The notes under the pieces are model-generated. The model did no database searches. It saw only the letters and a list, made by a program, of their open reading frames with translations, and had not been told where the DNA came from. The translations under genes and the position numbers were made by a program. This document shows positions 30,879-52,669 of a DNA stretch of 64,000 bases, piece after piece (positions within the stretch are counted from its first letter, which is position 1; the number at the start of each line of letters is the position of its first letter). The DNA lies in contig NZ_CP107899.1 of the NCBI RefSeq assembly GCF_036013915.1, positions 5,270,001 through 5,334,000 on the forward strand, in the 5' to 3' direction. The DNA is from Streptomyces sp. NBC_00464. GTDB taxonomy: Bacteria > Actinomycetota > Actinomycetes > Streptomycetales > Streptomycetaceae.

Positions 30879-31110
30879 GGCGGTCGTTGTAGCGCAGCCC
30901 TCGGACTCGGGAGCCACCTGGGCCGGGCCGCGCGCTGACCCATAAGACTTTCGCCAGGCCGTGCGCACAACGTGTACGGAACCGGCGAGCCAGACATTCA
31001 GTTCCCGTGCGGCGCCCGCGCCCCGGACGGCGGTACCGCGTACACCATGCGGACCGTGCCGGACCGGAATCAGGCGCGGCGCCCGGGAGCCCGACGGGAG
31101 AACCGCCCGC

Positions 31111-34100
31111 ATGCCTCAGCCCACCGAACCCGGCACGACCGGGAACGCAGAAGACAACAACACCCCCGGGGACAAGCTGCCGCCGCGCCGTAGGCGCCGC
31201 GCGGCATCCCGCCCGGCGGGCCCGCCGACGGCGGGCGCACAGGCCGGAGCCGAGGCGTCGGCCATACCGGCCGTTGACGCCGGAGTGTCGGAAGCCAGCA
31301 CCGAGAACACCACCGAGGCCGAGGCCGCGCCGCCCGTTCGTGCGCGCCGCCGGGCCGTCCGTAAGGCGACCGCCCCTGCCGGTGCGCCGCAGGCCGCCGA
31401 GGCCGTAGAGGTCGTGGAGCCGGTTGTCGCGGTCGCGGCTCCGGCCGAGGAGGAAGCCGTGGAGCCGGTCGAGGCGCCGCGTGCGCGCCGTCGCGCGTCC
31501 CGCAAGGCGACCGCCCCGGCGGGTGCGCCGCAGGCCGCCGAGGTCGTGGAGCCGGTTGTCGCCGCTGCCGCACCGGTCGAGGAAGAGGTCGTGGAACCGG
31601 TCGAGACGCCGGCGCCGCGTGCGCGTCGTCGCGCCGTCCGCAAGGCGACCGCCCCCGCCGGTGCGCCGCAGGCCGCCGAGGTGGCCGAGATCGTCGAGGA
31701 GGCCGTCGCGGCCGAGGCCGCCGTGGCCGAGCCCGTCGTCGCAGAGGCGCCGCGTGGCCGTACCCGGCGCCGGGCCTCCGCCCCCGCCGGTGCGCCGCAG
31801 GCCGCCCGGACCGAAGACGCCGCCGAGCCGGTTGTCGCCGCTGCCGCGCCGGTCGAGGAAGAGGCCGCAGAGCCGGTCGAGGCCCCGCGCGGCCGTCGTC
31901 GCGCGTCCCGCAAGGCGACCTCTCCCGCGGGTGCCCCGCAGGTCACGGAGGCCGCCGAGGAGCGCACCGAGATCCAGACGGGCGAGAGCCTGCCCGAGGC
32001 AGCCGTGGAGGAGCTGGCCGCCGAGACCGCCGAGGTCGAGGAGGCCGCCCCGCGCGGCCGTCAGCGCCGCCGGGCCACCGCCGCCGCCGGCCGGCCCGAG
32101 TTCACCGGCAAGGTCGAGGAGCCCGCGCGCAAGAGCCGCCGGGCGACGCGCCCCGCCGTCGCCGTGTTCCAGGCGCCGGTCTTCGCCGAGCCGATGTTCC
32201 AGACCCCGGAGACCGCGGCGGCCGCAGCCGCCGCCCAGCCCCCCGTCGCGCACGACGAGGAGCCCGAGGACGAGATCGTGACGGTGGAGGAGCAGGCCAC
32301 CGCCCCCGCCGAGCCGGAGGCCCCCGCCGAGGCCGCGCCGCAGGGCGGCTCGCGCCGCCGTCGCCGCCGCCGCGGTGAGGCTGCCGAGGCCGAGCCCGCC
32401 GCCGCGCCCGCCCCGGCCGCCGCTCCGGCCCAGGAGCAGACCGAGGACGAGCACGAGCACGAGCCTTCGAACGAGAGCGACGCCGAGCAGGACGGGGAGG
32501 AGACCGACGAGTACGGCGACCGCCCGTCGCGCCGTCGCCGTCGTGGTGGCCGTCGCCGCCGTCGTGGTGAGTCCGCCGAGGACGACGCCGCCGAGCAGCA
32601 CGCGGACGACGCCGCCGAGCGTTCCGACGACGAGCAGACGCGTGCCCAGGAGTCCGAGGACGAGGGCGACGACGAGCAGGACGACAACGACTCCGGTGCC
32701 TCCGGATCGAGCAGCAGCCGGCGCCGGCGCCGGCGCCGCCGTCGCAGCGGTGACTCCGCGTCCGACGCCGAGAACGGCACGGACGACCCGGAGCGCACGG
32801 TCGTCAAGGTCCGGGAGCCGCGCAAGAAGGAAGAGCGCGAGCCCGGCACCGGCTTCGACGAGGTCCAGTCCATCAAGGGCTCGACCCGTATGGAGGCGAA
32901 GAAGCAGCGCCGCCGCGAGGGTCGCGAGCAGGGCCGCCGGCGGGTTCCGATCATCACCGAGGCGGAGTTCCTCGCCCGTCGCGAGGCCGTCGAGCGGGTC
33001 ATGGTCGTCCGCCAGAACGGCGAGCGCACCCAGATCGGCGTCCTTGAGGACAACGTGCTCGTCGAGCACTACGTCAACAAGGAGCAGGCCACCAGCTACG
33101 TCGGCAACGTCTACCTGGGCAAGGTCCAGAACGTCCTGCCGTCCATGGAGGCCGCCTTCGTCGACATCGGCAAGGGCCGCAACGCCGTCCTGTACGCCGG
33201 TGAGGTCAACTTCGAGGCGCTCGGCATGGCCCACGGGCCGCGCCGTATCGAGACCGCGCTCAAGTCCGGCCAGTCCGTTCTCGTCCAGGTGACGAAGGAC
33301 CCGATCGGCCACAAGGGCGCCCGCCTGACCAGCCAGGTCTCGCTGCCCGGCCGCTACCTGGTCTACGTGCCCGAGGGCTCGATGACCGGGATCAGCCGCA
33401 AGCTGCCCGACACCGAGCGCGCCCGGCTCAAGACCATCCTCAAGAAGATCGTCCCCGAGGACGCGGGCGTCATCGTCCGTACCGCCGCGGAGGGCGCGAG
33501 CGAGGACGAGCTGCGCCGCGACGTCGAGCGGCTGCAGCAGCAGTGGGAGGACATCCAGAAGAAGTCGAAGAGCAGCGGCAGCTCCAACGCGCCGACGCTG
33601 CTCTACGGCGAGCCGGACATGACCGTCCGGGTCGTCCGCGACATCTTCAACGAGGACTTCTCCAAGGTCATCGTCAGCGGTGACGAGGCGTGGGACACCA
33701 TCTACGGCTACGTCTCGCACGTGGCGCCCGACCTGACGGACCGGCTGTCGCGGTGGACCTCCGAGGTCGACATCTTCGCGACGTACCGGATCGACGAGCA
33801 GCTCATGAAGGCGCTGGACCGCAAGGTCTACCTGCCGAGCGGCGGCTCGCTGGTGATCGACAAGACCGAGGCGATGGTCGTCGTCGACGTCAACACCGGC
33901 AAGTTCACCGGGCAGGGCGGCAACCTCGAGGAGACCGTCACCAAGAACAACCTGGAGGCGGCCGAGGAGATCGTGCGTCAGCTGCGGCTGCGCGACCTCG
34001 GTGGCATCGTCGTCGTCGACTTCATCGACATGGTGCTGGAGTCCAACCGGGACCTGGTGCTGCGGCGTCTGCTGGAGTGCCTGGGACGCGACCGTACGAA

Positions 34101-35184
34101 GCACCAGGTCGCCGAGGTCACCTCGCTGGGCCTGGTCCAGATGACCCGCAAGCGGGTCGGCCAGGGTCTGCTGGAGTCCTTCTCCGAGACCTGTGTCCAC
34201 TGCAACGGGCGCGGCGTGATCGTGCACATGGAGCAGCCCACCTCGGTGGGTGGCGGCGGCGGCAACGGCAAGCGTTCCAAGAAGCGCCGTGGCGGTTCGG
34301 GCCAGGAGCACGACCACGACCACGACCACGAGCACGTCTCCGAGACGGACACCGACGTCGAGACCGAGGCCGAGGTGGCTGCGGAGGTGGCCGCTCCGCT
34401 GGCGCTTCCCGAGCCGGAGTTCGTCCCGGACGAGGAGCTGTACAGCAGCCCGGCCGAGGCCGAGGCGGCAGCAGGGCGCGGCCGTGGCCGTCGCCGGGCG
34501 ACCCGTAAGGCGACGGCCCCGGCCGGCGCCCCGCGGGCCGCGTCCGCCCCGGCCCCGGTGGCCGAGCCGGTCGTGGCACCGGAGCCCGTGGTGGAGCCGG
34601 AGCCGGTCGTGGCCCCGGAGCCGGTGGCCGAGACCCCGGTTGCCGAGGTTCCGGCCGAGGCGCCGCAGGGCCGTACGCGCCGTCGGGCGACCCGTAAGGC
34701 GACCGCCCCGGCGGGTTCGCCCGCTCCGGCCGCAGAGCCGGTCGTGGTCCCCGTCGCCGAGGAGCCGGTGTCCGACGCCGACCCGGTTGCCGCGGAGGAC
34801 CCGGTCGTCGAGGCGCCGCCCGCCGAGGCCCCTGCCGAGGAGCCGGCCGCACCGCCGCGTGCCCGGCGCCGGGCGACCCGTAAGGCCACCGCGCCCGCGG
34901 GTTCCCCCGCAGGTGCCGAGGACGCCGCGGTCGTCGTGGTGACGGGCGCCGAGCCGGCCGCCGAGCCGGAGTCCGCCACCGAGGCGGAGGCCGAGCCGGC
35001 ACCGGCCAAGAAGGCGGCCCGCAAGACCGCGAAGAAGGTCACGGCCAAGAAGGCGGCCGTGAAGAAGACGGCGGCCAAGAAGACCGTCGCGAAGAAGACG
35101 ACGGCCAAGAAGGCGGCGGCGAAGAAGACGGTGGCGGCTGAGCAGTCGTCGTCCGCCGTCACGGCTTCGACCGACGAGGTCTGA
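31111..35184 (+). CDS. rne: RNase E/G family endoribonuclease with very long disordered arms
   Basis: A 1357-residue protein. The catalytic core (about 610-1045) contains an embedded S1 segment (SYVGNVYLGKVQNVLPSME), the DNase-I-like site VVVDVNTGKFTG near 921 with a second acidic patch VVVDFIDM, and the zinc-link CVHCNGRG near 1029 that dimerises the enzyme. It initiates mRNA decay and rRNA maturation. The N-terminal 600 residues and C-terminal 310 are low-complexity and carry about nine copies of a basic repeat of the type RRRAxRKATAPAG; the very end is a Lys/Ala tail like histone H1. ATG 31111 follows GGGAG. The 232-bp leader before it holds no gene. Confidence 0.95.
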   Translation: MPQPTEPGTTGNAEDNNTPGDKLPPRRRRRAASRPAGPPTAGAQAGAEASAIPAVDAGVSEASTENTTEAEAAPPVRARRRAVRKATAPAGAPQAAEAVEVVEPVVAVAAPAEEEAVEPVEAPRARRRASRKATAPAGAPQAAEVVEPVVAAAAPVEEEVVEPVETPAPRARRRAVRKATAPAGAPQAAEVAEIVEEAVAAEAAVAEPVVAEAPRGRTRRRASAPAGAPQAARTEDAAEPVVAAAAPVEEEAAEPVEAPRGRRRASRKATSPAGAPQVTEAAEERTEIQTGESLPEAAVEELAAETAEVEEAAPRGRQRRRATAAAGRPEFTGKVEEPARKSRRATRPAVAVFQAPVFAEPMFQTPETAAAAAAAQPPVAHDEEPEDEIVTVEEQATAPAEPEAPAEAAPQGGSRRRRRRRGEAAEAEPAAAPAPAAAPAQEQTEDEHEHEPSNESDAEQDGEETDEYGDRPSRRRRRGGRRRRRGESAEDDAAEQHADDAAERSDDEQTRAQESEDEGDDEQDDNDSGASGSSSSRRRRRRRRRSGDSASDAENGTDDPERTVVKVREPRKKEEREPGTGFDEVQSIKGSTRMEAKKQRRREGREQGRRRVPIITEAEFLARREAVERVMVVRQNGERTQIGVLEDNVLVEHYVNKEQATSYVGNVYLGKVQNVLPSMEAAFVDIGKGRNAVLYAGEVNFEALGMAHGPRRIETALKSGQSVLVQVTKDPIGHKGARLTSQVSLPGRYLVYVPEGSMTGISRKLPDTERARLKTILKKIVPEDAGVIVRTAAEGASEDELRRDVERLQQQWEDIQKKSKSSGSSNAPTLLYGEPDMTVRVVRDIFNEDFSKVIVSGDEAWDTIYGYVSHVAPDLTDRLSRWTSEVDIFATYRIDEQLMKALDRKVYLPSGGSLVIDKTEAMVVVDVNTGKFTGQGGNLEETVTKNNLEAAEEIVRQLRLRDLGGIVVVDFIDMVLESNRDLVLRRLLECLGRDRTKHQVAEVTSLGLVQMTRKRVGQGLLESFSETCVHCNGRGVIVHMEQPTSVGGGGGNGKRSKKRRGGSGQEHDHDHDHEHVSETDTDVETEAEVAAEVAAPLALPEPEFVPDEELYSSPAEAEAAAGRGRGRRRATRKATAPAGAPRAASAPAPVAEPVVAPEPVVEPEPVVAPEPVAETPVAEVPAEAPQGRTRRRATRKATAPAGSPAPAAEPVVVPVAEEPVSDADPVAAEDPVVEAPPAEAPAEEPAAPPRARRRATRKATAPAGSPAGAEDAAVVVVTGAEPAAEPESATEAEAEPAPAKKAARKTAKKVTAKKAAVKKTAAKKTVAKKTTAKKAAAKKTVAAEQSSSAVTASTDEV

Positions 35185-35317: not shown

Positions 35318-36070
35318 ATGATCGGCATGATTCTGGCGGCCGGCGCAGGCCGACGCCTGCGCCCCTACACCGACACGCTGCCCAAGGCCCTGGTGCCGGT
35401 GGGCCCCGAGGGGGACGAGGAGAGCCTGACCGTCGTCGACCTGACCCTGGGCAACTTCGCCGAGGTCGGTCTGACCGATGTGGCGATCATCGTGGGCTAC
35501 CGCAAGGAAGCCCTGTACGAGCGCAAGGCAGCCCTTGAGGCGAAGTACGGCGTCACGCTCACGCTGATCGACAACGACAAGGCCGAGGAGTGGAACAACG
35601 CCTACTCCCTCTGGTGCGGCCGTGACGCCCTCAAGGACGGCGTGATCCTCGCCAACGGCGACACCGTGCACCCCGTCTCCGTCGAGAAGACGCTGCTCGC
35701 CGCACGCGGCGAGGGCAAGAAGATCATCCTCGCCCTCGACACGGTGAAGCAGCTCGCCGACGAGGAGATGAAGGTCGTCGTCGACCCCGAGCGGGGTGTT
35801 CGGCGGATCACGAAGCTGATGGACCCGGCCGAGGCCACCGGCGAGTACATCGGCGTCACCCTCATCGAGGGCGATGCGGCCGAGGAGCTGGCCGACGCGC
35901 TGAGGACGACGTATCTGCGCGACCCGGACCTCTACTACGAGGACGGCTACCAGGAGCTCGTCAACCGCGGCTTCAAGGTCGACGTGGAGCCGATCGGCGA
36001 CATCAAGTGGGTCGAGATCGACAACCACGAGGACCTGGCCAAGGGCAGGAAGATCGCGTGCCAGTACTGA
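35318..36070 (+). CDS. Nucleotidyltransferase, phosphocholine-cytidylyltransferase (LicC)-like
   Basis: A 250-residue single-domain NTP transferase. The signature MIGMILAAGAGRRLRPYT followed by LPKALVPV at the N-terminus is the GxGxRxxPxT nucleotide-binding loop. The segment EEWNNAYSLW resembles the choline/ethanolamine-phosphate cytidylyltransferase subfamily (LicC), and GDxxH (NGDTVHP) supplies the metal Asp. It probably activates a phospho-alcohol as a CDP derivative. The next gene, a glycerol-1-phosphate dehydrogenase homologue, starts inside its last codons, so the substrate may be glycerol phosphate. ATG 35318 follows CCAGGAGAA. The TGA overlaps the next gene. Confidence 0.82.
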   Translation: MIGMILAAGAGRRLRPYTDTLPKALVPVGPEGDEESLTVVDLTLGNFAEVGLTDVAIIVGYRKEALYERKAALEAKYGVTLTLIDNDKAEEWNNAYSLWCGRDALKDGVILANGDTVHPVSVEKTLLAARGEGKKIILALDTVKQLADEEMKVVVDPERGVRRITKLMDPAEATGEYIGVTLIEGDAAEELADALRTTYLRDPDLYYEDGYQELVNRGFKVDVEPIGDIKWVEIDNHEDLAKGRKIACQY

Positions 36071-37119
36071 CCCGGCTGATCCCCGCACCGGTCGTCGTCG
36101 ACATCCGGGCCGGCGCGCTGGCCGATCTGGCGGCCGTCCTCGCGGATCAGCGGATCTCCGGCTCGGGGAAGCTGGCGATCGCGATCAGCGGGGGTTCCGG
36201 CCGGGCGCTGCGGGAGCGGCTCTCGGACAGCCTGCCGGGTGCGTCCTGGTTCGAGGTGGGCGGCGGAACGCTGGACGACGCCGTCAAGCTCGCGGAGGCC
36301 ATGAAGTCCGGCCGGTACGACGCCGTCGTCGGCCTCGGTGGCGGCAAGATCATCGACTGTGCGAAGTTCGCCGCGGCGCGCGTCGGGCTGCCGCTGGTCG
36401 CCGTGGCGACGAACCTGTCCCACGACGGTCTGTGCTCACCGGTGGCCACGCTGGACAACGACGCGGGGCGCGGCTCGTACGGTGTCCCGAACCCGATCGC
36501 CGTCGTCATCGACCTCGACATCATCCGTGAGGCACCGGTCCGTTTCGTGCGGTCCGGGATCGGTGACGCGCTCTCGAACATCTCCGCGGTGGCGGACTGG
36601 GAGCTCGCCCACCGGGTCAACGGCGAGGACATGGACGGACTGGCCGCCGCGATGGCCCGGCAGGCCGGTGAGGCCGTGCTGCGCCACCCCGGGGCTGTCG
36701 GGGACGACGGCTTCCTCCAGGTGCTGGCCGAGGGGCTGGTGCTGACCGGCATCTCGATGTCCGTGTCGGGGGACAGCCGTCCCGCCTCCGGCGCCTGCCA
36801 CGAGATCAACCACGCCTTCGACCTGCTCTTTCCCAAGCGTGCGGCGAGCCACGGTGAGCAGTGCGGTCTGGGTGCGGCGTTCGCGATGCACCTGCGCGGA
36901 GCGCACCAGGAGTCCGTACGGATGGCCGAGACGCTGCGGCGCCACGGTCTGCCGGTCACCGCGGAGGAGATCGGGTTCAGCGCGGACGAGTTCGTCTCGG
37001 TGGTCGGTTTCGCACCCCGGACCCGGCCGGGCCGCTACACGATCCTGGAGCATCTGGACCTGTCCCCGGACGGGATCCGGGACGCCTACGCCGACTACGT
37101 CAGAGCCGCCGGTTCCTGA
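36058..37119 (+). CDS. Iron-containing dehydrogenase, glycerol-1-phosphate dehydrogenase (EgsA/AraM)-like
   Basis: A 353-residue protein of the glycerol-1-phosphate / glycerol dehydrogenase superfamily. The nucleotide-binding segment GLGGGKIIDCAKFAA and the metal ligands are visible: Asp in GIGDALSN, His in the CHEINH segment and His in ASHGEQCG. Family members reduce dihydroxyacetone phosphate to sn-glycerol-1-phosphate with NAD(P)H. The GTG start at 36058 lies within the last 13 bases of the nucleotidyltransferase gene, showing tight coupling. Together the two could supply a CDP-activated glycerol phosphate of unusual stereochemistry. No CDP-alcohol phosphatidyltransferase lies next to them. 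Confidence 0.83.
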   Translation: MPVLTRLIPAPVVVDIRAGALADLAAVLADQRISGSGKLAIAISGGSGRALRERLSDSLPGASWFEVGGGTLDDAVKLAEAMKSGRYDAVVGLGGGKIIDCAKFAAARVGLPLVAVATNLSHDGLCSPVATLDNDAGRGSYGVPNPIAVVIDLDIIREAPVRFVRSGIGDALSNISAVADWELAHRVNGEDMDGLAAAMARQAGEAVLRHPGAVGDDGFLQVLAEGLVLTGISMSVSGDSRPASGACHEINHAFDLLFPKRAASHGEQCGLGAAFAMHLRGAHQESVRMAETLRRHGLPVTAEEIGFSADEFVSVVGFAPRTRPGRYTILEHLDLSPDGIRDAYADYVRAAGS

Positions 37120-37328: not shown

Positions 37329-37649
37329 GTGTACGCCATCGTGCGCAGCGGTGGTCGCCAGCACAAGGTTGCTGTCGGCGACATCGTTGAGGTTGACAAG
37401 ATTCCCACCGCCAATGTTGGCGACACGGTAGAGCTCTCTACCCTGCTCGTTGTCGACGGCGACGCTGTGACCAGCGACCCGTGGGTGCTGGACGGCATCA
37501 AGGTCCAGGCCGAGATTGTGGACCACCACAAGGGCGCGAAGATCGACATCCTTCGCTACAAGAACAAGACCGGCTACCGCCGTCGCCAGGGTCACCGCCA
37601 GCAGTACACGGCGATCAAGGTCACCGGTATCCCCGCGGCTGCGAAGTAA
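37329..37649 (+). CDS. rplU: 50S ribosomal protein L21
   Basis: A 106-residue protein of normal family length. It begins [18 protein letters not shown], and the conserved RNA-binding C-terminal segment [16 protein letters not shown] contacts 23S rRNA. It starts with GTG at 37329, and rpmA follows 14 bp after its stop, the standard rplU-rpmA-obg arrangement in bacteria. Its 5' leader is structured, which could allow autoregulation. Confidence 0.98.
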
Positions 37650-39601: not shown

Positions 39602-42600
39602 TTACTCGCGTTCGTCGGTGAGTTCCTTCGCCTTCTCCAGCATGCGGTCCACCACCCGGCCCGAGGCGTGGCCGTCGTCCAGGTCGCAGAAGAGCCGGTG
39701 GAACCGCTCGTAGCGCTCCTCGTGGGCGGCCGCCACCTCGTCGATGTTGCGGATCGCGCCGATCAGCTCCTCGGACGTGCTGATCAGCGGGCCGGGCGCG
39801 TCGTTCTCGAAGTCGAAGTAGAAGCCGCGCAGTTGGTCCCGGTAGTGCTCCAGGTCGTAGGTGAAGAAGAGCATCGGCCGCCTGAGATGCGCGTAGTCGA
39901 ACATCACGGACGAGTAGTCCGTGATCATGACGTCGGCGACGAGGTAGAGATCGGCGATGTCGGGGTACTCGGACACGTCGAAGACGAATCCGTTCCCTGC
40001 CCCGGGGATGCTGTCCACCACGTTGGAATGGCGGCGGATCAGCAGGATGTGATCGTCACCGAGATGCTCCCGCGCCTGTTCGATGTCCAGTCGCAGATCG
40101 AACTTGAACTGCCCCTGCCGATGCGCCAGGTCGTCGCGCCAGGTGGGGGCGTAGAGCACGATCTTCTTGCCGTCCGGCAGCCCGATGCGCGCCTTGATCT
40201 CCTTGGCCCGTGCCTGGAGGTCGGGTGCGTAGAGGTAGTCGTTGCGCGGATAGCCGGTCTCGACGATCTCGCCGGCGTACCCCATGGCCCGCTTGAGGAT
40301 CGGGGTGCTGAACCGGTTGGAGGACACCAGCATGTTCCAGTTGAGGGACTCCTGCTGGAGCTGGGCGTGGTACTGCGGATTGAACTTCGGCGCGTCGATG
40401 TCCAGGCCGATCTTCTTCAGCATGGTGCCGTGCCAGGTCTGGACGATGACCTGGCCCGGGCGGCGCTCGATCCAGTGCGGGAGATGCGCGTTGGTCACGA
40501 TGTACCGGCAGCGGGCCAGCGCGTCGTACCACTCGGTTCCCCAGAAGCGCACCTTCTCGGCTGTCGGCGGCAGGTCCACCTGTCCGTCCCTGACCAGCCA
40601 CAGGTGCTGGACATCCGCGTTGCGCCGGAGCAGCTCCTCGTGGATGGCGCGAGGGCTGTCGGAGTACTGCTTGCCGTTGTAGCTGATGTACAGCACGGCG
40701 TCGCGCAGCGGCTTCTCGCGGCCGGCCTCGTACACCTCGCGGTGCAGCCTGTCCTGCCGGTAGCGGCCGCGTTCGAGGATGGTCAGATCGGAGGGGCACT
40801 GCAGCTGGGGGAAGTCGTGCCAGCGGGATTCGAAGTGGTACTCCCGGCCTGCGTGTTCGCCCGATACCGGAAAGTCCGGCACTGCGAGCCGGTCGATGAC
40901 GAACGGGACGTCGGGGCTGCCGTCCCCCGGCCGAAGGTAGAAGTTCCACCGGCCGCTCTTCAGCGGCCGGGGGCCGTTGGGGCCTGCCATGGCCGAGGGC
41001 GTGAACCTGGCGACGAACGTACCGTCCGGGAGCACCTCGAGCGGCACGGTCTTCTCGTCGAAGAAGTCACGGGCCTTGATGAGGAAGGAAGGATCGCTCA
41101 GATCGGCCGGCGTGGAACCGCGGACGGTGTACTCGCCCTCGGTCATCCGCACCGCGGTCATCCTGGCCTGGACCGGGCGTCCGGAGAACTTCAGATAGCC
41201 GTTGTTTCCCGCGATCAGCGCGAGCTCGTTCCGCTCGGCGGCCTGGGCGAGGGTGGCGGGGAGCCGGATCTGGCGGTCGGCGAGTCCGTCGCGGACCACG
41301 GTGCCGAAGCGGCGCTCCGTTCCGTCGGGGGCGGTGGCGACGAGCTCGGTGCTCCAGTTGCGCCGGGAGGCCAGGGCCGGATTGGCGCCCTCCGTGGCCG
41401 TTGTCCCGTCGGCCATGTCCTGGTGCTCGGGCAGCAGCGCGACGTCCTTGAGCGGCACCAGGACCCGGAAGGAGGCGCGGCCGTCCGGACCGGGCTCCAG
41501 GACGGTGGGGTAGGAGATGACCTCCCCGCTCTTACGGTTGGAGACTTCCAGGCTCACCGACTCGCCCGCCGTCAGCGGGACGCGGATCTCGCCCTCGATC
41601 TCCACGCTCTCGTCCACGGCGCGGTGATCGGTGATCAGGGCGCGTACCCGCTCGACACGCAGCTTCAGGGCGCCCGTGGAGGTGTTGGGGAGCAGCCGGA
41701 AGTTCTCGTCCAGCCACTGGTACGGCGCGTGGTTGGCCGCACCCGCTCCGCTCGCGTGCACGGCACGCTTGCGGACCAGTCCCGCGGAGGCGATGCCCAG
41801 GCCGACGTGCCAGGTGCCCTCCACCCACTGGCCGCCCTTGCAGAGCTTTGCGGGGTCGAACAGCAGCTCCCAGCCCGCCCAGTCGTAGTTGTTCTCCTTC
41901 CGGGAGGACAGTGCGGTGCACTCCGGGCTGTAGACGTTGTGCAGGGGCAGCACCGTACGCCGTCGCGAGCCGTGCTTCTTGAGCGCCAGGACCTTGACGG
42001 CGCTGTGCTTCGTCGACTGGTCGATCCGGTCGATCCACGCGTGGCCGGACAGCCGCAGCTTGCCGTTCTCCCAGCTGACCTTCTGGAGCGGAGCACGGGG
42101 CGTGAGGTCGGGGTCGATCCGTCGAGCCCGTTTCGGTATCAGGCCGGCACTGTGGTCCAGGGCGGAGAAGCTTGCGTACTTCCGAACCCGCCCCTCGATC
42201 TCGATCGGGTCGCCGCGCCGCTCGGAGTTGATCAGCTCGACCAGCTCGGTCATGGCGTGCTTGCGTACCAGCAGCCATTTGACCCGCTGGGTGGCGGTCA
42301 GCTCCATGACCACCTGCGGATCCACCTGGTTCAGGAACTGGTTGATGACCCGCAGGAACTCGGCACGGAACTCTTCGTCCCCGTCGGGAAGCACATTGAG
42401 GAAGATCCGCAGATCGCCCTTGAGGACGGTGCGGTCGTACTCGCGCTTCAGCGTCGCGGCCTCTTCCCCGGGCTGCCTGCCGAAGAAGCGGCTCACCGAC
42501 TCCACCGCGGCCGAACGGTCGCGTACGGCCTTCGGCTCGGTCCTGCGCTGGGTGATGGACGGGGTGCCCTCGCCCTCGCGCAGCCGCCAGTAGTACGTGG

Positions 42601-43213
42601 GAGTGCTGATGATGTCGACGGCCTCGGCCAGGAACTGGGCGGGCACGATGACCGGGACGTCCTCGTAGAGCACCCCTTCGGGGAAGGCCAGCCTGTGCTT
42701 CTCCCAGAACGAGCGCCGGAAGACCTTGTTACAGGCGATCTTGTCGTTGAGGAGCTTCCTGTTCACGGACACATGGGTCCGCTGGACGGCGCCGCCGGCG
42801 AGGATGCGGTGCATCGGTGACTGCCACACCTTGGTCCTGTTGATGTGCAGCACGTTGCCCGTGATGAAGTCCGAACCGCTCTCGTCCAGGCTTGCCAGCA
42901 TGAGGCGGTAGGCGTCCGGCGGAATCATGTCGTCGCTGTCGACGAACGCGACGAACTCGCTCTCGGGCCCGAGCAGTCCGAGCCCCGTGTTCCGTGCGGC
43001 ACCGAGGCCGGCGTTCTCCTTGTTGACCAGCCGGAACCGCGGGTCGCGGGCCTCGTACGCGGCAGCGATGGCGGCCGAATTGTCGGGGGACCCGTCGTTC
43101 ACCATGATGACTTCGAGGTCCTTGAGGGTCTGCGCGGCCAGTGAGTCCAGACAGGCGGGCAGATACTGCTCCACGCTGTAGATCGGCACGATGACGCTGA
43201 GACGAGGGGCCAT
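39602..43213 (-). CDS. Bifunctional GT2 glycosyltransferase / CDP-glycerol glycerophosphotransferase-like wall polymerase
   Basis: A 1203-residue protein. The N-terminal 240 residues form a family-2 glycosyltransferase: VIVPIYSVEQYLPACLDSL, VNDGSPDNSA, then the DSDD metal motif. A middle region of about 550 residues has beta-rich modules I do not recognise. The C-terminal 400 residues are TagF/TagB-like, with VQTWHGTMLKKIG, TGYPRND and ITDYSSVMFDYA. Such proteins build teichoic-acid-like polymers by adding sugars and alcohol- or sugar-phosphates at the inner membrane face. ATG 43213 has AAAGGAAA upstream and is taken over the longer upstream frame. It is the second gene of a two-gene operon, 20 bp after its shorter relative. 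Confidence 0.88.
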   Translation of the reverse strand: MAPRLSVIVPIYSVEQYLPACLDSLAAQTLKDLEVIMVNDGSPDNSAAIAAAYEARDPRFRLVNKENAGLGAARNTGLGLLGPESEFVAFVDSDDMIPPDAYRLMLASLDESGSDFITGNVLHINRTKVWQSPMHRILAGGAVQRTHVSVNRKLLNDKIACNKVFRRSFWEKHRLAFPEGVLYEDVPVIVPAQFLAEAVDIISTPTYYWRLREGEGTPSITQRRTEPKAVRDRSAAVESVSRFFGRQPGEEAATLKREYDRTVLKGDLRIFLNVLPDGDEEFRAEFLRVINQFLNQVDPQVVMELTATQRVKWLLVRKHAMTELVELINSERRGDPIEIEGRVRKYASFSALDHSAGLIPKRARRIDPDLTPRAPLQKVSWENGKLRLSGHAWIDRIDQSTKHSAVKVLALKKHGSRRRTVLPLHNVYSPECTALSSRKENNYDWAGWELLFDPAKLCKGGQWVEGTWHVGLGIASAGLVRKRAVHASGAGAANHAPYQWLDENFRLLPNTSTGALKLRVERVRALITDHRAVDESVEIEGEIRVPLTAGESVSLEVSNRKSGEVISYPTVLEPGPDGRASFRVLVPLKDVALLPEHQDMADGTTATEGANPALASRRNWSTELVATAPDGTERRFGTVVRDGLADRQIRLPATLAQAAERNELALIAGNNGYLKFSGRPVQARMTAVRMTEGEYTVRGSTPADLSDPSFLIKARDFFDEKTVPLEVLPDGTFVARFTPSAMAGPNGPRPLKSGRWNFYLRPGDGSPDVPFVIDRLAVPDFPVSGEHAGREYHFESRWHDFPQLQCPSDLTILERGRYRQDRLHREVYEAGREKPLRDAVLYISYNGKQYSDSPRAIHEELLRRNADVQHLWLVRDGQVDLPPTAEKVRFWGTEWYDALARCRYIVTNAHLPHWIERRPGQVIVQTWHGTMLKKIGLDIDAPKFNPQYHAQLQQESLNWNMLVSSNRFSTPILKRAMGYAGEIVETGYPRNDYLYAPDLQARAKEIKARIGLPDGKKIVLYAPTWRDDLAHRQGQFKFDLRLDIEQAREHLGDDHILLIRRHSNVVDSIPGAGNGFVFDVSEYPDIADLYLVADVMITDYSSVMFDYAHLRRPMLFFTYDLEHYRDQLRGFYFDFENDAPGPLISTSEELIGAIRNIDEVAAAHEERYERFHRLFCDLDDGHASGRVVDRMLEKAKELTDERE

Positions 43214-43233: not shown

Positions 43234-45465
43234 TCAGACCCGCTCGAACAGCTCGAGCGCCTGGGCCGGTGTGGGTGCCGGCACGCGGTCGGCGAGCGGT
43301 ACGACGGGAAGGAGGTTCTCCTCGCCCAGGAAGACTCTGCGGACGACACGCTCCGAGGCCCGGCCGTCGTCGAAGTCGCAGAAGCGCTCCCGGAACGCGC
43401 TGCGCAGCGCGGCGGACGCCGGGCTCTGCCACTCGCCGGACCGAAGGATCTCGGTGAGCTGCGCCTGAGTGGTGGCGACGGCGCCGGGGGGCTCGGCCGG
43501 CAGGTCGAAGTAGCTGCCGCGGACGACCTTGTACGTGTCCCAGTCGTCGGCGAAGATCACGATCGGCCGGTCCAGGTTGGCGTAGTCGAACATCGCCGAG
43601 GAGTAGTCGGTGATCAGGGCGTCGGCCGCGAGGTAGAGCTGCTCCACGTTCTGGTGGGCGGAGACGTCGATCACCCGGCCGCTGGCCTGGAGCTCGGCGA
43701 GGCGGCCGGTGGCCCGGTAGAAGTAGTGGCCCCGGACCAGCAGTGTGACGTCGGGGCCGAGCTCTTCGGCCAGCGCTTCGAGGTCGATCCGCGGGGTGAA
43801 TTCCTTCTGGTATTCACGGTGGGTCGGCATATAGAGAAAGATCTTGGAGCCGTTCGCCGCGCCGAGTTCGCGACGGGCGCGCGCGACCTCCTCGGCTCCG
43901 GCGTTGACCAGTACGTCGTTGCGCGGATAGCCGGTCTCCAGCGAGGTGTAGGAGCACGGATAGACCCGCTCCCACACCGAGGTGGAGAAGTTGTTGGACG
44001 AAAGGCTGTAGTCCCAGCGGTCGCACCGCCGCAACAGGTCCGCCATCTTCATGCTCGTGGAGGCCGGGTAGTCGGCCTGGTCGAGCCCCATCGTCTTCAG
44101 CGGGGTGCCGTGGTGGGTCTGCAGATGGATCTGGCCCTCGCGCTTGACCAGCGCGTCCGCGAAGTTCACGTTGTTGACGAAGTACTTCCCGCGGGCCAGC
44201 ACCGTCCAGTACTCGCGGGAGCCGACGACGGCCACCTCGACGCCCTTGGGCACCCGGCTCACGTGCTCCGCGCGTACCAACCAGACCCGGCGGATGTGCG
44301 GGGCCAGCCGGGCCAGTTCGGCATCGATGGCCGCGGGGCTGCACGCGTAGCCCCGGCTCCAGTAGGCGGAGAAGACCGCGAGGTTCTCCTCGACCGGCAG
44401 CCGCAGCTGGGACCGGTAGAACATCTGCATCGCGGTCCGCTTGGCCCGGTTGACGCCCTCGCCGGTGCGCGCCCGTGCCCGGTTGCGCACCCGGTTCGCC
44501 CGGGTGACAGCCGTCAGGGCCAGATAGGCATCCTTTCCGAGCAGCGCGTACTTGCAACCGCGGCCACCGCCCGGACGCTCGAATCCTTCCGGCAGCCGTC
44601 GGTTGTAGTCGGCGGCCGCCCGGTGGAAGAAGTCGGACCGCGCATTCTTGGGGAGGCGGCCCGGCTTTTCCAGCACGGTGAGATAGTGGTCGACCATTTT
44701 TCCGAAAAGTGCGGGGCGCCAGGAATCGTGTTCCGGATGTTCGTCCAGATAGGCGAATACGCGGTCGTACTGGGCGAATACGTCGAAATGCTTGCGGCTG
44801 ACCGTGCGAAGGATGTTTCCGCCCTCGCGTCGCTGGCGGTAGAGCACGCAGGTGCGGTCGAGCAACGCGATGCGTTCCGCCGCGACCAGGGTGGTGTAGG
44901 TCCAGGGGGCGTCCTCGTAGTACCCGGCCGGGAACCGGAACCCGTGTGTCTCGACGAAATCGCGGCGGTAGGCCTTGTTCCAGACGATCTGCAGCAGGTC
45001 GAGCAGCTCGGGCCGCTCCGAAAGGGGGAAGACGGCGGGCTCGCCGCGGCCGAGGAGGTCGGCTCGCCGGTTGGGCAGCAGTCGGCCGTCCCAGTAGCTG
45101 CGCATGTAGTCGTAGATCAGGATCTCGGGGTCGTCCGTCGCGTCGAGGCGCTCGGCGATGGCACCGAGCGAGCCGGGCGTCAGCGTGTCGTCGCTGTCGA
45201 GGAAGATCAGGTAGTCGCCGGCCGCCTGCTCGATTCCGGCATTACGGGCGTGTCCCAGCCCCACGTTCTCGCTGAGGTGGAGGACCCGGACCCGCGTGTC
45301 ACGCGCCGCGTACTCGTCGAGGATGGCGCCGGAGCCGTCCGGCGAGCAGTCGTCCACAGCGATGACTTCGAAGTCGGTGAAGTCCTGTCGCAGTACCGAG
45401 TCGAGGCACTCCCGAACATACCCCTGCACGTTGTACGCAGGCACGATGAGTGTCAGTCGAGGCAT
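43234..45465 (-). CDS. GT2 glycosyltransferase / CDP-glycerol glycerophosphotransferase-like protein, shorter paralog
   Basis: A 743-residue protein with the same two end domains as its neighbour but without the long middle region. GT2 at the start has LIVPAYNVQGYVRECLDSV, AVDDCSPDGSG and DSDDTLTPG. The TagF-like domain from about 340 has LQTHHGTPLKTMG, ETGYPRNDV and LITDYSSAMFDYA. From its neighbours it probably initiates or elongates a phosphate-linked wall glycopolymer. ATG 45465 lies at the border of an AT-rich divergent promoter region shared with galE. The downstream paralog follows after 20 bp, so they are co-transcribed. Confidence 0.88.
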   Translation of the reverse strand: MPRLTLIVPAYNVQGYVRECLDSVLRQDFTDFEVIAVDDCSPDGSGAILDEYAARDTRVRVLHLSENVGLGHARNAGIEQAAGDYLIFLDSDDTLTPGSLGAIAERLDATDDPEILIYDYMRSYWDGRLLPNRRADLLGRGEPAVFPLSERPELLDLLQIVWNKAYRRDFVETHGFRFPAGYYEDAPWTYTTLVAAERIALLDRTCVLYRQRREGGNILRTVSRKHFDVFAQYDRVFAYLDEHPEHDSWRPALFGKMVDHYLTVLEKPGRLPKNARSDFFHRAAADYNRRLPEGFERPGGGRGCKYALLGKDAYLALTAVTRANRVRNRARARTGEGVNRAKRTAMQMFYRSQLRLPVEENLAVFSAYWSRGYACSPAAIDAELARLAPHIRRVWLVRAEHVSRVPKGVEVAVVGSREYWTVLARGKYFVNNVNFADALVKREGQIHLQTHHGTPLKTMGLDQADYPASTSMKMADLLRRCDRWDYSLSSNNFSTSVWERVYPCSYTSLETGYPRNDVLVNAGAEEVARARRELGAANGSKIFLYMPTHREYQKEFTPRIDLEALAEELGPDVTLLVRGHYFYRATGRLAELQASGRVIDVSAHQNVEQLYLAADALITDYSSAMFDYANLDRPIVIFADDWDTYKVVRGSYFDLPAEPPGAVATTQAQLTEILRSGEWQSPASAALRSAFRERFCDFDDGRASERVVRRVFLGEENLLPVVPLADRVPAPTPAQALELFERV

Positions 45466-45712: not shown

Positions 45713-46699
45713 ATGACTTGGATGGTTACGGGTGGGGCCGGATACATCGGTGCGCACGTCGTACGGGCGATGCTTGCCGGAGGTCTGCAGGTGGTCGTGT
45801 ACGACGACCTGTCGACGGGAAACGCCGGGAACGTGCCCGACGGGGTGCCCCTGATCACCGGCAGCGTGCTGGACCGGCAGGCCCTGGACGCGGCGATCCG
45901 TGACCATGCCGTGGCGGGCGTGGTGCATGTCGCGGGGAAGAAGCAGGTCGGCGAGTCCGTCCAGCGCCCCCTCCACTACTACCGGGAGAACGTGACCGGC
46001 CTGGAGGTGCTGCTGGAGAGCATGGTCGCGGCCGGAGTCGACCGCCTGGTGTTCTCCTCGTCGGCCGCCGTCTACGGCATGCCCGACGTCGAGCTCGTCA
46101 CCGAGGACACCCCCTGTGCGCCGATGAGCCCGTACGGGGAGACCAAGCTCATCGGCGAATGGCTGATCCACGCCACCGCCAGGGCCCACGGGCTGCGCTG
46201 CGCCTCGCTCCGCTACTTCAACGTCGCCGGCGCGGCCGCGCCCGAGCTTGCCGACGACGGGGTGTCCAACCTCATCCCGATGGTCTTCGAACGCCTCGAC
46301 GCCGGTGAGGGGCCGCGGATCTTCGGCGACGACTATGCGACGCCCGACGGCACCTGCGTCCGCGACTACATCCATGTGGAGGACATCGCCTCCGCCCACC
46401 TCGCGGCCGCACGCAGGCTGAAAGGGGCCGAGCCCGGCACGGATCTCACGCTGAACATCGGGCGTGGCGAGGGCAGCTCGGTACGCGAGATGGTCGACCG
46501 CATCCTCAAGGCGACGGACAGCGGGGACATCGCCCCCGAGGTGACCGCCCGCCGCGCCGGTGACCCGGCTCGCGTGGTCGCGGGCGCGGAACGGATCCGT
46601 GCGGAGCTGGGCTGGTCGGCCCGGTACGGCATCGACGAGATGATCGAATCCGCCTGGCAGGGCTGGCGCCTCCGCCACCCGTGGGCCCGGCGGGAATGA
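45713..46699 (+). CDS. galE: UDP-glucose 4-epimerase
   Basis: A 328-residue short-chain dehydrogenase-type epimerase that interconverts UDP-glucose and UDP-galactose, or their N-acetyl forms. The NAD loop TGGAGYIGAH lies near 6-15, the catalytic SSSAAVYG segment and Y-x-x-x-K (YGETK) are present, and the C-terminal sugar region RRAGDPARVVAG is typical of GalE. It is divergent from the glycopolymer operon, so it may supply UDP-galactose for that polymer. The ATG at 45713 follows AGAGGGAGAG. Confidence 0.93.
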   Translation: MTWMVTGGAGYIGAHVVRAMLAGGLQVVVYDDLSTGNAGNVPDGVPLITGSVLDRQALDAAIRDHAVAGVVHVAGKKQVGESVQRPLHYYRENVTGLEVLLESMVAAGVDRLVFSSSAAVYGMPDVELVTEDTPCAPMSPYGETKLIGEWLIHATARAHGLRCASLRYFNVAGAAAPELADDGVSNLIPMVFERLDAGEGPRIFGDDYATPDGTCVRDYIHVEDIASAHLAAARRLKGAEPGTDLTLNIGRGEGSSVREMVDRILKATDSGDIAPEVTARRAGDPARVVAGAERIRAELGWSARYGIDEMIESAWQGWRLRHPWARRE

Positions 46700-47003
46700 C
46701 GGGATCGGGCGGCTGGTCACCTGGCGGCCGGGGGCACGGAAAGGGGGTGCGTGAAAGGGTGCGTGAAATCCGCAGAATTCGATATCGAGTTCGACGTCAC
46801 TCATGTGTGTGGCAGTTTTCGTGAACCGGTGCGTGCGAAACGAAGCCGAATGGTTACGGGGGCCTGTCGCTTTTCCTTCGGACGAGTCGGTAAGCGGGTT
46901 GACGGAGCTGTTTCGGCGTGGATGAGAGGCCGGATCTGACTATGGTCACCCGGTAGGTCGCAGCTGCTGCGACAGGACCGCCGACTCATCGTGGGGCAGA
47001 ACT
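46700..47003. other. Intergenic region upstream of rmlA, no gene seen
   Basis: This 304-bp gap contains a direct repeat (GGGTGCGTGAAA, copies at about 46745 and 46757) and a TTGACG hexamer at 46899-46904 that might be part of a promoter, though no good -10 box sits 16-18 bases after it. No reading frame is convincing. Confidence 0.5.
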
Positions 47004-48074
47004 GTGAAGGCTCTCGTACTTTCCGGCGGGGCAGGCACCCGGCTTCGTCCCATTACTCATACCTCGGCCAAACAGCTGGTTCCGGTGGCGAACAAACCGG
47101 TGCTGTTCTACGGACTCGAAGCCATCGCGGAAGCCGGCATCACCGAGGTCGGCATCATCGTGGGCGACACCGAGGAGGAGATCCGCGCGGCGGTCGGCGA
47201 CGGCTCCCGGTTCGGCATCGACGTCACCTACATCCCGCAGTCCGAGCCGCTCGGACTCGCGCACGCGGTCCTGATCGCCCAGCGCTTCCTGGGCGACGAC
47301 GACTTCGTCATGTACCTCGGCGACAACTTCATCGTCGGCGGGATCGCCGGTCTGGTCGAAGGGTTCTGCGCGGACCGGCCCGACGCCCAGATCCTGCTGA
47401 CCCAGGTGCCCGACCCGACCTCGTTCGGTGTCGCCGAACTCGACGGGGACGGCAGGGTCGTGGCCCTGGAGGAGAAGCCGAAGGAACCCAAGAGCGACCT
47501 GGCACTCGTCGGCGTCTACCTCTTCACCCGGGTCATCCACGAGGCCGTCCGCTCCATCCGCCCGTCCTGGCGCGGCGAGCTGGAGATCACCCACGCCATC
47601 CAGTGGCTGATCGACCAGGAGCGCGACGTCCGCTCCACCACGATCCGCGGCTACTGGAAGGACACCGGCAACGTCACCGACATGCTGGAGGTCAACCGCA
47701 CCGTGCTGGAGACCGTCGAACCATGTACCCAGGGCGCTCACGTCGATGACGAGAGCGAGATCATCGGCCGGGTCCGGATCGAGCCGGGTGCCCGGGTCAC
47801 CCGCAGCCGGATCGTCGGCCCCGCCATCATCGGCGCCCGCTCGGTCATCAGCGACGCCTACGTCGGGCCGTTCACCTCGGTCGCCCAGGACTGCCGGATC
47901 GAGGACAGCGAGATCGAGTACTCCATCGTGCTGCGGGGCGCCTCGATCGACGGTGTCCGCCGCGTGGAGGCCTCCCTCATCGGCCATGAGGTCGAGGTGA
48001 CCCCCGCACCCCGCAGCCCGTCCGCCCACCGACTCGTCCTCGGCGACCACAGCAAGGTGCAGATCTCCTCATGA
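47004..48074 (+). CDS. rmlA: Glucose-1-phosphate thymidylyltransferase, long form
   Basis: A 356-residue enzyme making dTDP-glucose from glucose-1-phosphate and dTTP. The signature LSGGAGTRLRPITHTSAKQL is at the N-terminus, and the C-terminal third is a left-handed beta-helix of hexapeptide repeats (IIGRVRIEPGARV, IVGPAIIGARSVI). This makes it the long RmlA/StrD type common in antibiotic sugar pathways rather than the short RfbA. The start is GTG 47004. The stop overlaps the rmlB start in an ATGA, so translation is coupled. Confidence 0.93.
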   Translation: MKALVLSGGAGTRLRPITHTSAKQLVPVANKPVLFYGLEAIAEAGITEVGIIVGDTEEEIRAAVGDGSRFGIDVTYIPQSEPLGLAHAVLIAQRFLGDDDFVMYLGDNFIVGGIAGLVEGFCADRPDAQILLTQVPDPTSFGVAELDGDGRVVALEEKPKEPKSDLALVGVYLFTRVIHEAVRSIRPSWRGELEITHAIQWLIDQERDVRSTTIRGYWKDTGNVTDMLEVNRTVLETVEPCTQGAHVDDESEIIGRVRIEPGARVTRSRIVGPAIIGARSVISDAYVGPFTSVAQDCRIEDSEIEYSIVLRGASIDGVRRVEASLIGHEVEVTPAPRSPSAHRLVLGDHSKVQISS

Positions 48075-49057
48075 CGAACCGTCTCCTGGTGACCGGCGGC
48101 GCCGGCTTTATCGGCTCCCACTACGTCCGTACGCTGCTCGGCCCGGACGGCCCCGGGGACGTCGCCGTCACCGTGCTCGACAAGCTCACCTACGCGGGAA
48201 ATCCGGCCAACCTCGACGCCGTGCGCGGCCACCCCGGATTCTCGTTCGTGCAGGGCGACATCTGCGACGCGGAGCTGGTCGGCGGCCTCATGGCCGGACA
48301 CGACCAGGTGGTGCACTTCGCCGCCGAATCACATGTGGACCGCTCCATCGACGGCGGCGCCGAGTTCGTCCGTACCAACGTCCTGGGCACCCACACCCTT
48401 GTCGACGCCGCGCACCGGGCCGGTGTCACGACCTTCGTGCACATCTCCACCGACGAGGTCTACGGATCGATCGACGAAGGCTCCTGGACCGAGAGCGAAC
48501 CCCTCGCCCCCAACTCCCCGTACTCCGCCTCCAAGGCGTCGAGCGACCTGATCGCGCTCTCCTACCACCGCACCCACGGACTCGACGTACGGGTCACCCG
48601 CTGCTCCAACAACTACGGGCACCACCACTTCCCCGAGAAGGTCATCCCGCTCTTCGTCACCAACCTGCTGGACGGCCACCCGGTCCCGCTGTACGGCGAC
48701 GGCGCCCACGTCCGCGACTGGCTGCACATCGACGACCACGTCCAGGGCATCGAACTCGTGCGCACCAAGGGCCGAGCGGGCGAGGTCTACAACATCGGCG
48801 GCGGCACCGAGCTCTCCAACAAGGAGCTCACCGGACTGCTGCTGGAGGCCTGCGGCGCGGACTGGGACACGGACGTCACCCACGTCGAGGACCGCAAGGG
48901 ACACGACCGGCGCTACTCCGTCGACTGCACCAGGATCCGCGAGGAGCTCGGCTACGAGCCCCGCAAGGACTTCCGCACCGGACTCGCCGAGACCGTGCGG
49001 TGGTACCGCGACAACCGCTCCTGGTGGGAGCCGCTCAAGGAGAGGGCCGCCCTGTGA
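48071..49057 (+). CDS. rmlB: dTDP-glucose 4,6-dehydratase
   Basis: A 328-residue SDR enzyme that converts dTDP-glucose to dTDP-4-keto-6-deoxyglucose with bound NAD. The Rossmann motif VTGGAGFIGSHYVR, the catalytic STDEVYG segment and YSASKASSD (YxxxK) are intact, and NNYGHHHFPEKVIP is the RmlB hallmark. It overlaps rmlA upstream and rmlD downstream by four bases each, so the three genes form a tightly coupled operon. Confidence 0.96.
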   Translation: MTNRLLVTGGAGFIGSHYVRTLLGPDGPGDVAVTVLDKLTYAGNPANLDAVRGHPGFSFVQGDICDAELVGGLMAGHDQVVHFAAESHVDRSIDGGAEFVRTNVLGTHTLVDAAHRAGVTTFVHISTDEVYGSIDEGSWTESEPLAPNSPYSASKASSDLIALSYHRTHGLDVRVTRCSNNYGHHHFPEKVIPLFVTNLLDGHPVPLYGDGAHVRDWLHIDDHVQGIELVRTKGRAGEVYNIGGGTELSNKELTGLLLEACGADWDTDVTHVEDRKGHDRRYSVDCTRIREELGYEPRKDFRTGLAETVRWYRDNRSWWEPLKERAAL

Positions 49058-49956
49058 ACCCGGTCTGGCTGGTCACCGGGGCCGCCGGAATGCTCGGGCA
49101 GGACCTCATGGCCGCCCTCGCCCACGAGGACGTCACCGCGGTCGCCGCCGACCGTACGGCCCTGGACATCGCCGACCCCGGCAGCGTCCGGGAGGCGTTC
49201 GCCGCCCACCGCCCCGCGGTCGTCGTCAACTGCGCGGCCTGGACCGCCGTCGACGACGCCGAGAGCCAGGAGGCCGCCGCCCTGCGGGTCAACGGCACCG
49301 GCCCGGCGGTCCTCGCCGCGGCCTGCCGCGAGCACGGCACCGTCCTGCTCCACGTCTCCACCGACTACGTGTTCGCCGGGGACAGCGCCCGGCCGTACGG
49401 CGAGGACGACCCCACCGCCCCGCGCACCGCCTACGGCCGCACCAAACTGGCGGGCGAACGCGCCGTGCTGGAGACCCTTCCCGGCACCGGCTACGTCGTG
49501 CGCACCGCCTGGCTCTACGGCGCGGGCGGCGCCAACTTCGTCCGCACGATGATCAGGCTGGAGGGCGTCAAGGACACCCTCGACGTGGTGGACGACCAGC
49601 GCGGCCAGCCCACCTGGACCGTCGATCTGGCCGGCCGGCTCGTCCGGCTCGGACAGGCCGCGCTCGACGGCACCGCCCCGGCGGGCGTCTACCACGGCAC
49701 CAGCGGCGGCGAGACGACCTGGTTCGGTTTCACCCGGGAGATCTTCCGGCTGCTCGGCGCGGACCCGGCCCGGGTCCGCCCGACCACCAGCGGGGCCTTC
49801 GTGAGACCGGCCCCCCGGCCCGCGTACAGCGTGCTCGCGCACGAGCGGTTTGCCGCGGCCGGGATCGAACCCGTCCGGGACTGGCGCACGGCACTGGAGG
49901 AGGCGTTCCCGGCGCTGCTCGCCGCGGAACGCCCCCTGGCACCTGTCCGGCCCTGA
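49054..49956 (+). CDS. rmlD: dTDP-4-dehydrorhamnose reductase
   Basis: A 300-residue NAD(P)H-dependent reductase that completes dTDP-L-rhamnose. N-terminal VTGAAGMLGQDL, the VSTDYVFAGD segment and TAYGRTKLAGE (YxxxK) are all present. It starts with GTG inside the rmlB stop (GTGA). It is convergent with rmlC, whose stop codon lies 19 bp away, so the four rhamnose genes are arranged tail to tail rather than in a single operon. Confidence 0.94.
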   Translation: MNPVWLVTGAAGMLGQDLMAALAHEDVTAVAADRTALDIADPGSVREAFAAHRPAVVVNCAAWTAVDDAESQEAAALRVNGTGPAVLAAACREHGTVLLHVSTDYVFAGDSARPYGEDDPTAPRTAYGRTKLAGERAVLETLPGTGYVVRTAWLYGAGGANFVRTMIRLEGVKDTLDVVDDQRGQPTWTVDLAGRLVRLGQAALDGTAPAGVYHGTSGGETTWFGFTREIFRLLGADPARVRPTTSGAFVRPAPRPAYSVLAHERFAAAGIEPVRDWRTALEEAFPALLAAERPLAPVRP

Positions 49957-49975
49957 TCCGCTGGACAGGCCCCGA

Positions 49976-50614: not shown

Positions 50615-50808
50615 GCGATCACGTCCTGTTCCTGAAATTCGCCGGGTCGTTCGGCCGTGGAGCCGACGTCTCCTGCAACGAGTCGCGGCGCGAAACAGAT
50701 ACGGAACGGTACGGACCGGGGCGAAACAGGGTCCAGGGTGCGGAACGCGAAGGCGCCGATTTCCGCGCTCGCGTAGATTGCGGGGTCCAGCGAGGCGAAC
50801 CATGGGGG

Positions 50809-52587: not shown

Positions 52588-52669
52588 CCCGGGCGCCGTC
52601 CCCCGGACGGCCGTCTCGCATCACGGGATACGTGACGGATGCCCGCAGCGTGCGCATTACTCTGCGGGC

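Follow-up and report, generated by a model that had tools for sequence, protein, structure and literature searches.

An overlapping nucleotidyltransferase and glycerol-1-phosphate dehydrogenase-type gene pair between rne and rplU of a Streptomyces genome: a second copy of a genus-wide module and a possible source of CDP-glycerol

What is made by an overlapping pair of genes for a nucleotidyltransferase (NTase) and a glycerol-1-phosphate dehydrogenase (G1PDH)-type enzyme that lies between rne and rplU in Streptomyces sp. NBC_00464? The window analysed here, the whole stretch of 64,000 nucleotides from contig NZ_CP107899.1 (positions 5,270,001 to 5,334,000), carries on its forward strand a LicC/inositol-1-phosphate cytidylyltransferase (IPCT)-type NTase gene of the PF00483 family at 35318..36070 (250 aa), the end of which overlaps the start of an Fe-ADH_2 gene at 36058..37119 (GTG start, 353 aa) by 13 bases (36058..36070), an arrangement that suggests translational coupling. 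The best explanation, to which we give an even chance, is that the pair is a two-step supply unit that converts dihydroxyacetone phosphate (DHAP) to sn-glycerol-1-phosphate (G1P) and then to CDP-glycerol for envelope phosphotransferases and, probably, for TagF polymerases, replacing TagD. The dehydrogenase, judged by its family, would reduce DHAP to G1P, and the NTase, a proposed CTP:glycerol-1-phosphate cytidylyltransferase, would join G1P to CTP, giving a CDP-glycerol with the mirror form of the glycerol in the TagD product, the form that is usual in archaea. The substrates, the stereochemistry and the user of the product are predicted from sequence; a CDP-alcohol is the likely product.

The gene identities proposed in an earlier sequence-only reading of the window were borne out, the coordinates and the overlap by the open reading frames and the family names by profile and structure matches. 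The NTase matched PF00483 with 49.5 bits (cut-off 21.2) and combines this domain with the catalytic Arg, Lys and Asp of a LicC/IPCT-type cytidylyltransferase. R13, K23 and D115 are conserved throughout an alignment of 19 sequences that contains the window's own, and correspond, by motif position and not by structural alignment, to the R/K/D set named as critical in IPCT (PMC12275187; this and the other papers cited by PMC number are represented by excerpts). The top solved relative was LicC (1jyk, E 6e-13), over query residues 4-111 only. The likeness to LicC was confined to the N-terminal half of the protein, and inositol-1-phosphate and sugar-phosphate NTases were resembled more broadly; 4jd0, the T. 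maritima IPCT (PMC12275187), matched over nearly the full length. The NTase gave no match to the TagD-type model TIGR01518. The dehydrogenase matched PF13685 (Fe-ADH_2) with 104 bits (cut-off 28) and its top solved relatives, at about 145 bits, were G1PDHs; 3ce9, labelled a glycerol dehydrogenase, scored 142 bits and the next chain so labelled 71.5 bits. D170, H248 and H265, which we take to be the metal ligands, were the same in all of 13 aligned sequences, one of them the window's, and aligned with the solved G1PDHs.

The NTase matches raise the alternative that this enzyme takes as its substrate a different phospho-alcohol or a sugar phosphate (inositol-phosphate, phosphocholine or a sugar-1-phosphate) and that a related keto compound is the substrate of the dehydrogenase. 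Such an assignment is improbable, since an NTase stood beside a G1PDH-type enzyme in 20/20 loci from outside the genus and in all of the best 80 named loci, ranked by nearness to the window protein, and since the solved relatives closest to the dehydrogenase are G1PDHs; it does draw support from sub-cut-off matches of the NTase to NCBI equivalog models for IPCT/DIPPS and sugar-1-phosphate NTases, from the extent of the match to 4jd0, and from a phosphotransferase homologue (locus L074) that bears a MobA-like NTase domain of its own.

The pair had been thought special to this spot, which was not borne out. The genome, 8.96 Mb in size, has a second NTase-dehydrogenase pair at C1:184672-186449, and the window pair is an additional copy of a module that occurs throughout the genus. 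The dehydrogenase was found in 150/150 sampled Streptomyces genomes and the NTase in 149/150, the sole miss being G132, where contig ends cut the NTase. A unique insertion was rejected in view of the second pair and the genus-wide homologues. A third PF13685 match in the genome was judged from its sequence and its neighbours to be AroB; the names of this gene and of the shikimate-pathway genes around it are presumptive. The sequence-only reading had expected nothing similar in S. coelicolor; in this interval most Streptomyces genomes do have no copy, but the broader inference that the genus lacks such a pair does not hold. Two dehydrogenases were present in 12/150 genomes, the second always just before rplU (12/12), and also in three Streptomyces of a class sample (G274, G304 and G410). 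The best 80 named loci comprised 68 with main-operon neighbours and 12 of the rne-rplU copy.

On locus L004 the operon of the main copy has the order CDP-alcohol phosphotransferase with DUF5941, NTase, dehydrogenase, small CDP-alcohol phosphotransferase, GT2, TagG-like permease, TagH-like ATPase and then hpnC/hpnD-type genes, with a divergent galE; the hpn, tag and gal names are those that we presume for these genes. A main syntenic region with the same genes (araM, tagG, tagH, crtB and a CDP-alcohol phosphatidyltransferase) has been described over 929 Streptomyces genomes, in 76 of which a sugar-phosphate nucleotidyltransferase is duplicated (PMC13118837). In the excerpts of that paper the pair is assigned no function, and neither a copy at rne-rplU nor a comparison with TagD is mentioned. 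Among the literature matches listed, a G1P dehydrogenase coupled with a cytidylyltransferase in Streptomyces was not found.

The supposed coupling of the two genes was upheld by comparison. Measured by the ends of tblastn matches, the 13-base overlap was kept in 97/97 Streptomyces loci and in 14/20 loci outside the genus, where four others overlapped by 7 bases and two had a 26-base gap. The window copy had a dN/dS of 0.08-0.22 against 12 close copies, which indicates purifying selection. The pairing is not due to chance, because the overlap is conserved across loci and the pair is under purifying selection. The same dN/dS values led to rejection of decaying pseudogenes for the window clade; in some other species one or the other gene is absent from rne-rplU.

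TagD, the usual enzyme, was not found above the TIGR01518 cut-off of 165.4 bits in any of the 150 Streptomyces genomes, the best match being 70.9 bits, and for this reason the pair may supply the glycerol of wall polymers. PF04464 (TagF-type) matches were present in 142/150 of the same genomes, and CDP-glycerol from the pair would replace the TagD supply for these polymerases. The class sample consisted of 296 genomes, 28 Streptomyces and 268 others, and the dehydrogenase was found in 72 of them (28/28 Streptomyces and 44/268 others); the others with it belong to eight further families and have 46-53% identity over full-length matches. Outside Streptomyces, PF04464 occurred in 42/44 genomes with the dehydrogenase and in 71/224 without it, although these counts, like the other co-occurrence counts and the p-values, carry no correction for relatedness. 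Among 72 non-Streptomyces genomes with strong TagF matches (E 1e-80 or better), 40 had the dehydrogenase, 10 had TagD at 100 bits or more, none had both and 22 had neither; TagF lines of 1e-60 and 1e-20 also gave no genome with both. The 100-bit line, which 22 class genomes reach, is our own looser one, and the exclusion between dehydrogenase and TagD rests on it because the curated TagD cut-off was reached by only 3/296 class genomes, a point in its disfavour. In family f26, seven genomes had TagD at the 1e-80 line and the eighth, G378, had instead the dehydrogenase, which no other f26 genome of the class sample has; at the looser TagF lines one to three f26 genomes had neither. The pair could plausibly take the place of TagD in Streptomyces and in other actinobacteria.

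A local connection with TagF was seen at the rne-rplU locus itself. Two GT2-PF04464 (TagF-type) genes, both on the reverse strand and both proposed users of CDP-glycerol, lie with their nearer end 2.5 kb past the pair: a bifunctional polymerase at 39602..43213 (about 1203 aa, with an inferred start) and a polymerase at 43234..45465 (743 aa). Within about 16 kb downstream of rplU, window-type TagF genes were present in 10/11 two-copy genomes vs 3/49 single-copy genomes, window-type meaning at least 50% identical, a line set after the rows had been seen, which detracts from the contrast. Any PF04464-like match was found there in 10/11 and 19/49, respectively. The two-copy genomes were 12, the window's included, with G003 (flank of 2.4 kb) left out of the count and shorter flanks in G147 (8.5 kb) and G102 (12.4 kb); the 49 single-copy genomes were picked from 138, mostly for long contigs and not at random. 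In G118 the window-type TagF genes were 10-14 kb away. A TagF-type gene was close to 12/12 named rne-rplU loci, at least one of which (L145) is, judged by its length, the same contig as G070. The mean number of PF04464 matches per genome was 5.2 in two-copy and 3.3 in single-copy genomes (p 0.0006). The window's genome has six, two of them being the window's TagF genes; a second pair of PF04464 genes occurs at G000:C1:4868485-4874251, with singles at C1:7472844 and C1:2350500. In S. coelicolor, SCO2589 and SCO2590 are annotated as CDP-glycerol glycerophosphotransferases (PMC6629963).

Both co-occurrence and linkage with PF04464 genes were thus found, as a role in TagF supply would require. The link to TagF made by the sequence-only reading has gained from the genome-wide co-occurrence, the local linkage and the lack of a TagD match over cut-off in Streptomyces, and the guess of a TagF user is now better founded than its original grounds because the rne-rplU copy is linked to window-type TagF genes. 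The part of that guess that fell is that the two window genes were the only likely users, because the pair is a second copy of a module that stands beside CDP-alcohol phosphotransferases; these, and not TagF, are its usual neighbours. In the explanation that we prefer, the main Streptomyces copy would feed the CDP-alcohol phosphotransferases and the exporter of its own operon, while the rne-rplU copy would be an extra one that selection retains in the minority of species and that most likely raises the supply for the TagF-type genes just past obg. Use of G1P-derived CDP-glycerol by TagF is feasible because two TagF-like capsule polymerases, when given racemic CDP-glycerol in vitro, incorporated glycerol of either hand (PMC8262930).

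Neighbourhoods were fetched for 20 of the 44 dehydrogenase-bearing genomes outside the genus, and in 20/20 the NTase was directly upstream of the dehydrogenase. A CDP-alcohol phosphotransferase was near the pair in 16/20 (15 by tblastn and one by Pfam); of the remaining loci, one had a weak match and three had none in the span, one of which was cut by a contig end. DUF5941 was present in 34/44 non-Streptomyces genomes with the dehydrogenase vs 17/224 without it, and lay within 15 kb in 30/34. The co-occurrence with TagF-like and CDP-alcohol genes that had been anticipated was therefore observed for both kinds of gene, and the pair was not found conserved without a CDP-alcohol-using partner in the genome.

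These neighbours suggest another possibility, that the pair serves only the main-operon CDP-alcohol phosphotransferases, in making a phosphoglycerol-bearing lipid or glycan with TagGH-like export, that the rne-rplU copy is spare and that nearness to TagF is incidental, the product of a shared insertion hot spot or of relatedness. We regard this as doubtful, in that it leaves unexplained the occurrence of TagF without TagD, the exclusion between dehydrogenase and TagD, and the local TagF linkage (10/11 vs 3/49). It would nevertheless account for the CDP-alcohol phosphotransferase in the Streptomyces main operon and in most outside loci, for the proximity of DUF5941, and for several findings that count against TagF supply. 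A TagF-type match was within the fetched span in only 3/20 outside loci. No PF04464 match was obtained in 8/150 Streptomyces and only marginal ones (E 3e-5 to 7e-4) in three more, and because the PF04464-free genomes all keep the dehydrogenase, TagF cannot be the only user of the product. One gene of the pair is missing at rne-rplU in some species: G118 (L024) and G092 (L045) have the dehydrogenase only, and G132 (L055) has only the NTase end, at a contig end before rplU, without a dehydrogenase.

The proposal that the pair replaces TagD for TagF is weakened further by several other observations, 1) 22/72 strong-TagF genomes outside the genus carry neither the dehydrogenase nor TagD, 2) a weak TIGR01518 match (48-71 bits) occurs in 63/150 Streptomyces, the window's genome included, and such a TagD-like protein could be another CDP-glycerol source in them, 3) G080 has an rne-rplU pair with no TagF nearby, and G103 and G136 have window-type TagF genes with no rne-rplU pair, 4) the dehydrogenase scored 243 bits against the cut-off of 413 for PRK00843, the NCBIfam G1PDH equivalog, and is called G1PDH-type and not a certified G1PDH for that reason, 5) the NTase reached none of the NCBI equivalog models and 6) CpgD, a related COG1213 enzyme, gave no product with glycerol-1-phosphate (PMC12275187).

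The two copies were compared in trees. In the dehydrogenase tree (38 sequences), the copies at rne-rplU fell into two groups, with a single clade not rejected (p 0.27), and the window copy did not group with the main copy of its own genome; a recent duplication of that main copy was rejected on this ground. In the NTase tree (31 rows), a single clade of the rne-rplU copies was rejected (p 2e-7; one identical pair was not constrained). Five rows were left out of the latter, two split rows from G131 (L019 and L020) and three rows truncated where a contig ends (L043, L044 and L054). The NTase copies were more alike than the dehydrogenase copies in 8/9 genomes with matches for both copies; the comparison in G020 covered 369 bases only, and the ninth genome, G131, matched in different parts. 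In G080 (L021/L022) the NTase copies were 99.6% identical and the dehydrogenase copies 85.9%. The NTase copies of G111 (L041/L042) and G003 (L025/L040) were likewise far more alike than the dehydrogenase copies. The mixing on the NTase tree looks like gene conversion between the loci, as if the NTase alone had been homogenised, and part of the greater likeness of the NTase copies may be due to a stronger constraint on this gene. Both NTase copies of G131 gave split, partial matches; the genes may truly be damaged, or two near-identical copies may have been misassembled.

A further use of G1P, in archaeal-type ether lipids made through PcrB/GGGPS, as with AraM in Bacillus, is very improbable. 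The family membership of the dehydrogenase and the inclusion in Streptomyces of species with all three archaeal lipid genes (PMC6431249) would favour it, but the coupled partner is a nucleotidyltransferase. PcrB/GGGPS gave 0 matches in the window's genome (G000), the only one searched, and B. subtilis and four archaeal controls matched; since PcrB/GGGPS was not found in the genome, the ether-lipid reading does not fit here and is disfavoured for this genome. The excerpts of PMC8262930 confine the AraM lipid route to Bacillales.

The surroundings of the pair were as the sequence-only reading had described them, with the pair between rne and rplU and the two TagF-type genes 2.5 kb away. The upstream gene (30961..35184, forward strand, from its translated open reading frame), for RNase E/G, and the downstream gene (37329..37649, forward strand) are, judged by their sequence, presumably rne and rplU. 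In the flanking arms of the RNase E protein, repeats of the type ATRKATAPAGAP recur many times in near-identical form. Scans of the region for promoters, terminators and Rfam families yielded nothing useful. After the TagF genes come genes that we take to be galE, rmlA-type and rmlB-type and an LCP-LytR_C ligase (window 45713-60178), and this part of the window looks like a wall-glycopolymer region. The GalE-type epimerase, at 45713..46699 on the forward strand, is probably part of the wall-polymer neighbourhood, and the ligase lies at 58244-60178 in the same region.

Some outside loci show related arrangements. Locus L063 holds the pair, TagGH-like genes, both phosphotransferases, a GT2, a GT2-TagF fusion and a further PF04464 gene, and a glycerophosphodiester phosphodiesterase gene (L063:5537-6346) is in the same cluster. 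In G378 the pair has as neighbours a GlfT2-type galactofuranosyltransferase (L071:6245-8458) and an ABC exporter. The large phosphotransferase homologue at L074:5633-7471 consists of the MobA-like NTase domain and a CDP-alcohol phosphotransferase domain, which is the layout of the IPCT/DIPPS enzymes, and a bifunctional CDP-polyol enzyme may have been the ancestor of the DUF5941 enzymes.

Streptomyces is known to have glycerol teichoic acids. A lipoteichoic acid of the poly(glycerol phosphate) kind has been described from S. hygroscopicus, one assembly of which carries the main operon (L190), and sequenced actinobacterial genomes were without clear LtaS orthologues, an alternative route being only a hypothesis in the excerpts of that 2011 paper (PMC3196553). 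A broader proposal, which we advance tentatively as possible rather than probable, is that in Streptomyces and several other actinobacterial families TagD has been replaced by an archaeal-type route, a G1P dehydrogenase with a LicC/IPCT-type cytidylyltransferase, so that glycerol teichoic acids, the lipoteichoic ones included, would be built from CDP-activated G1P and be mirror-image wall teichoic acids. If this is true, a conserved pair in the place of TagD would identify the step that is missing from their synthesis in actinobacteria, and from it the hand of the polymers could be predicted and then tested with GlpQ, a stereospecific hydrolase; in B. subtilis, wall and lipoteichoic acids differ from each other in hand (PMC7086022). 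For G1P dehydrogenases of bacteria other than Bacillus there would also be a role besides ether lipids, and such a role would bear on arguments about the lipid divide (PMC5059525, PMC6431249).

Among known systems, the AraM/EgsA G1PDHs (B. subtilis AraM and archaeal EgsA) share with the window dehydrogenase the Fe-ADH_2 family, the metal-ligand pattern and the closest solved structures. The window enzyme differs from them in scoring below the NCBIfam equivalog cut-off, in being coupled to an NTase and in belonging to a genome with no PcrB/GGGPS match. LicC, IPCT and CpgD, which are of the COG1213 type, are solved sequence relatives of the window NTase and have the R/K/D residues in common with it; in the excerpted literature the known members use phosphocholine, inositol-1-phosphate or phosphoglycerate, unlike the substrate proposed here. 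TagD/TarD and TagF share with the pair the proposed product, CDP-glycerol for PF04464 polymerases, whereas the window NTase is of the PF00483 and not the TagD family, its proposed substrate is the other enantiomer, and outside Streptomyces 0 class genomes had the dehydrogenase together with TagD at 100 bits or more. The COG1213 number is the one that we presume for the window NTase. The pneumococcal CDP-2-glycerol pathway (Gtp1-3) also employs a dehydrogenase and an NTase to form an unusual CDP-glycerol, as proposed here; its product is the 2-isomer and in this differs from the proposed product of the window pair.

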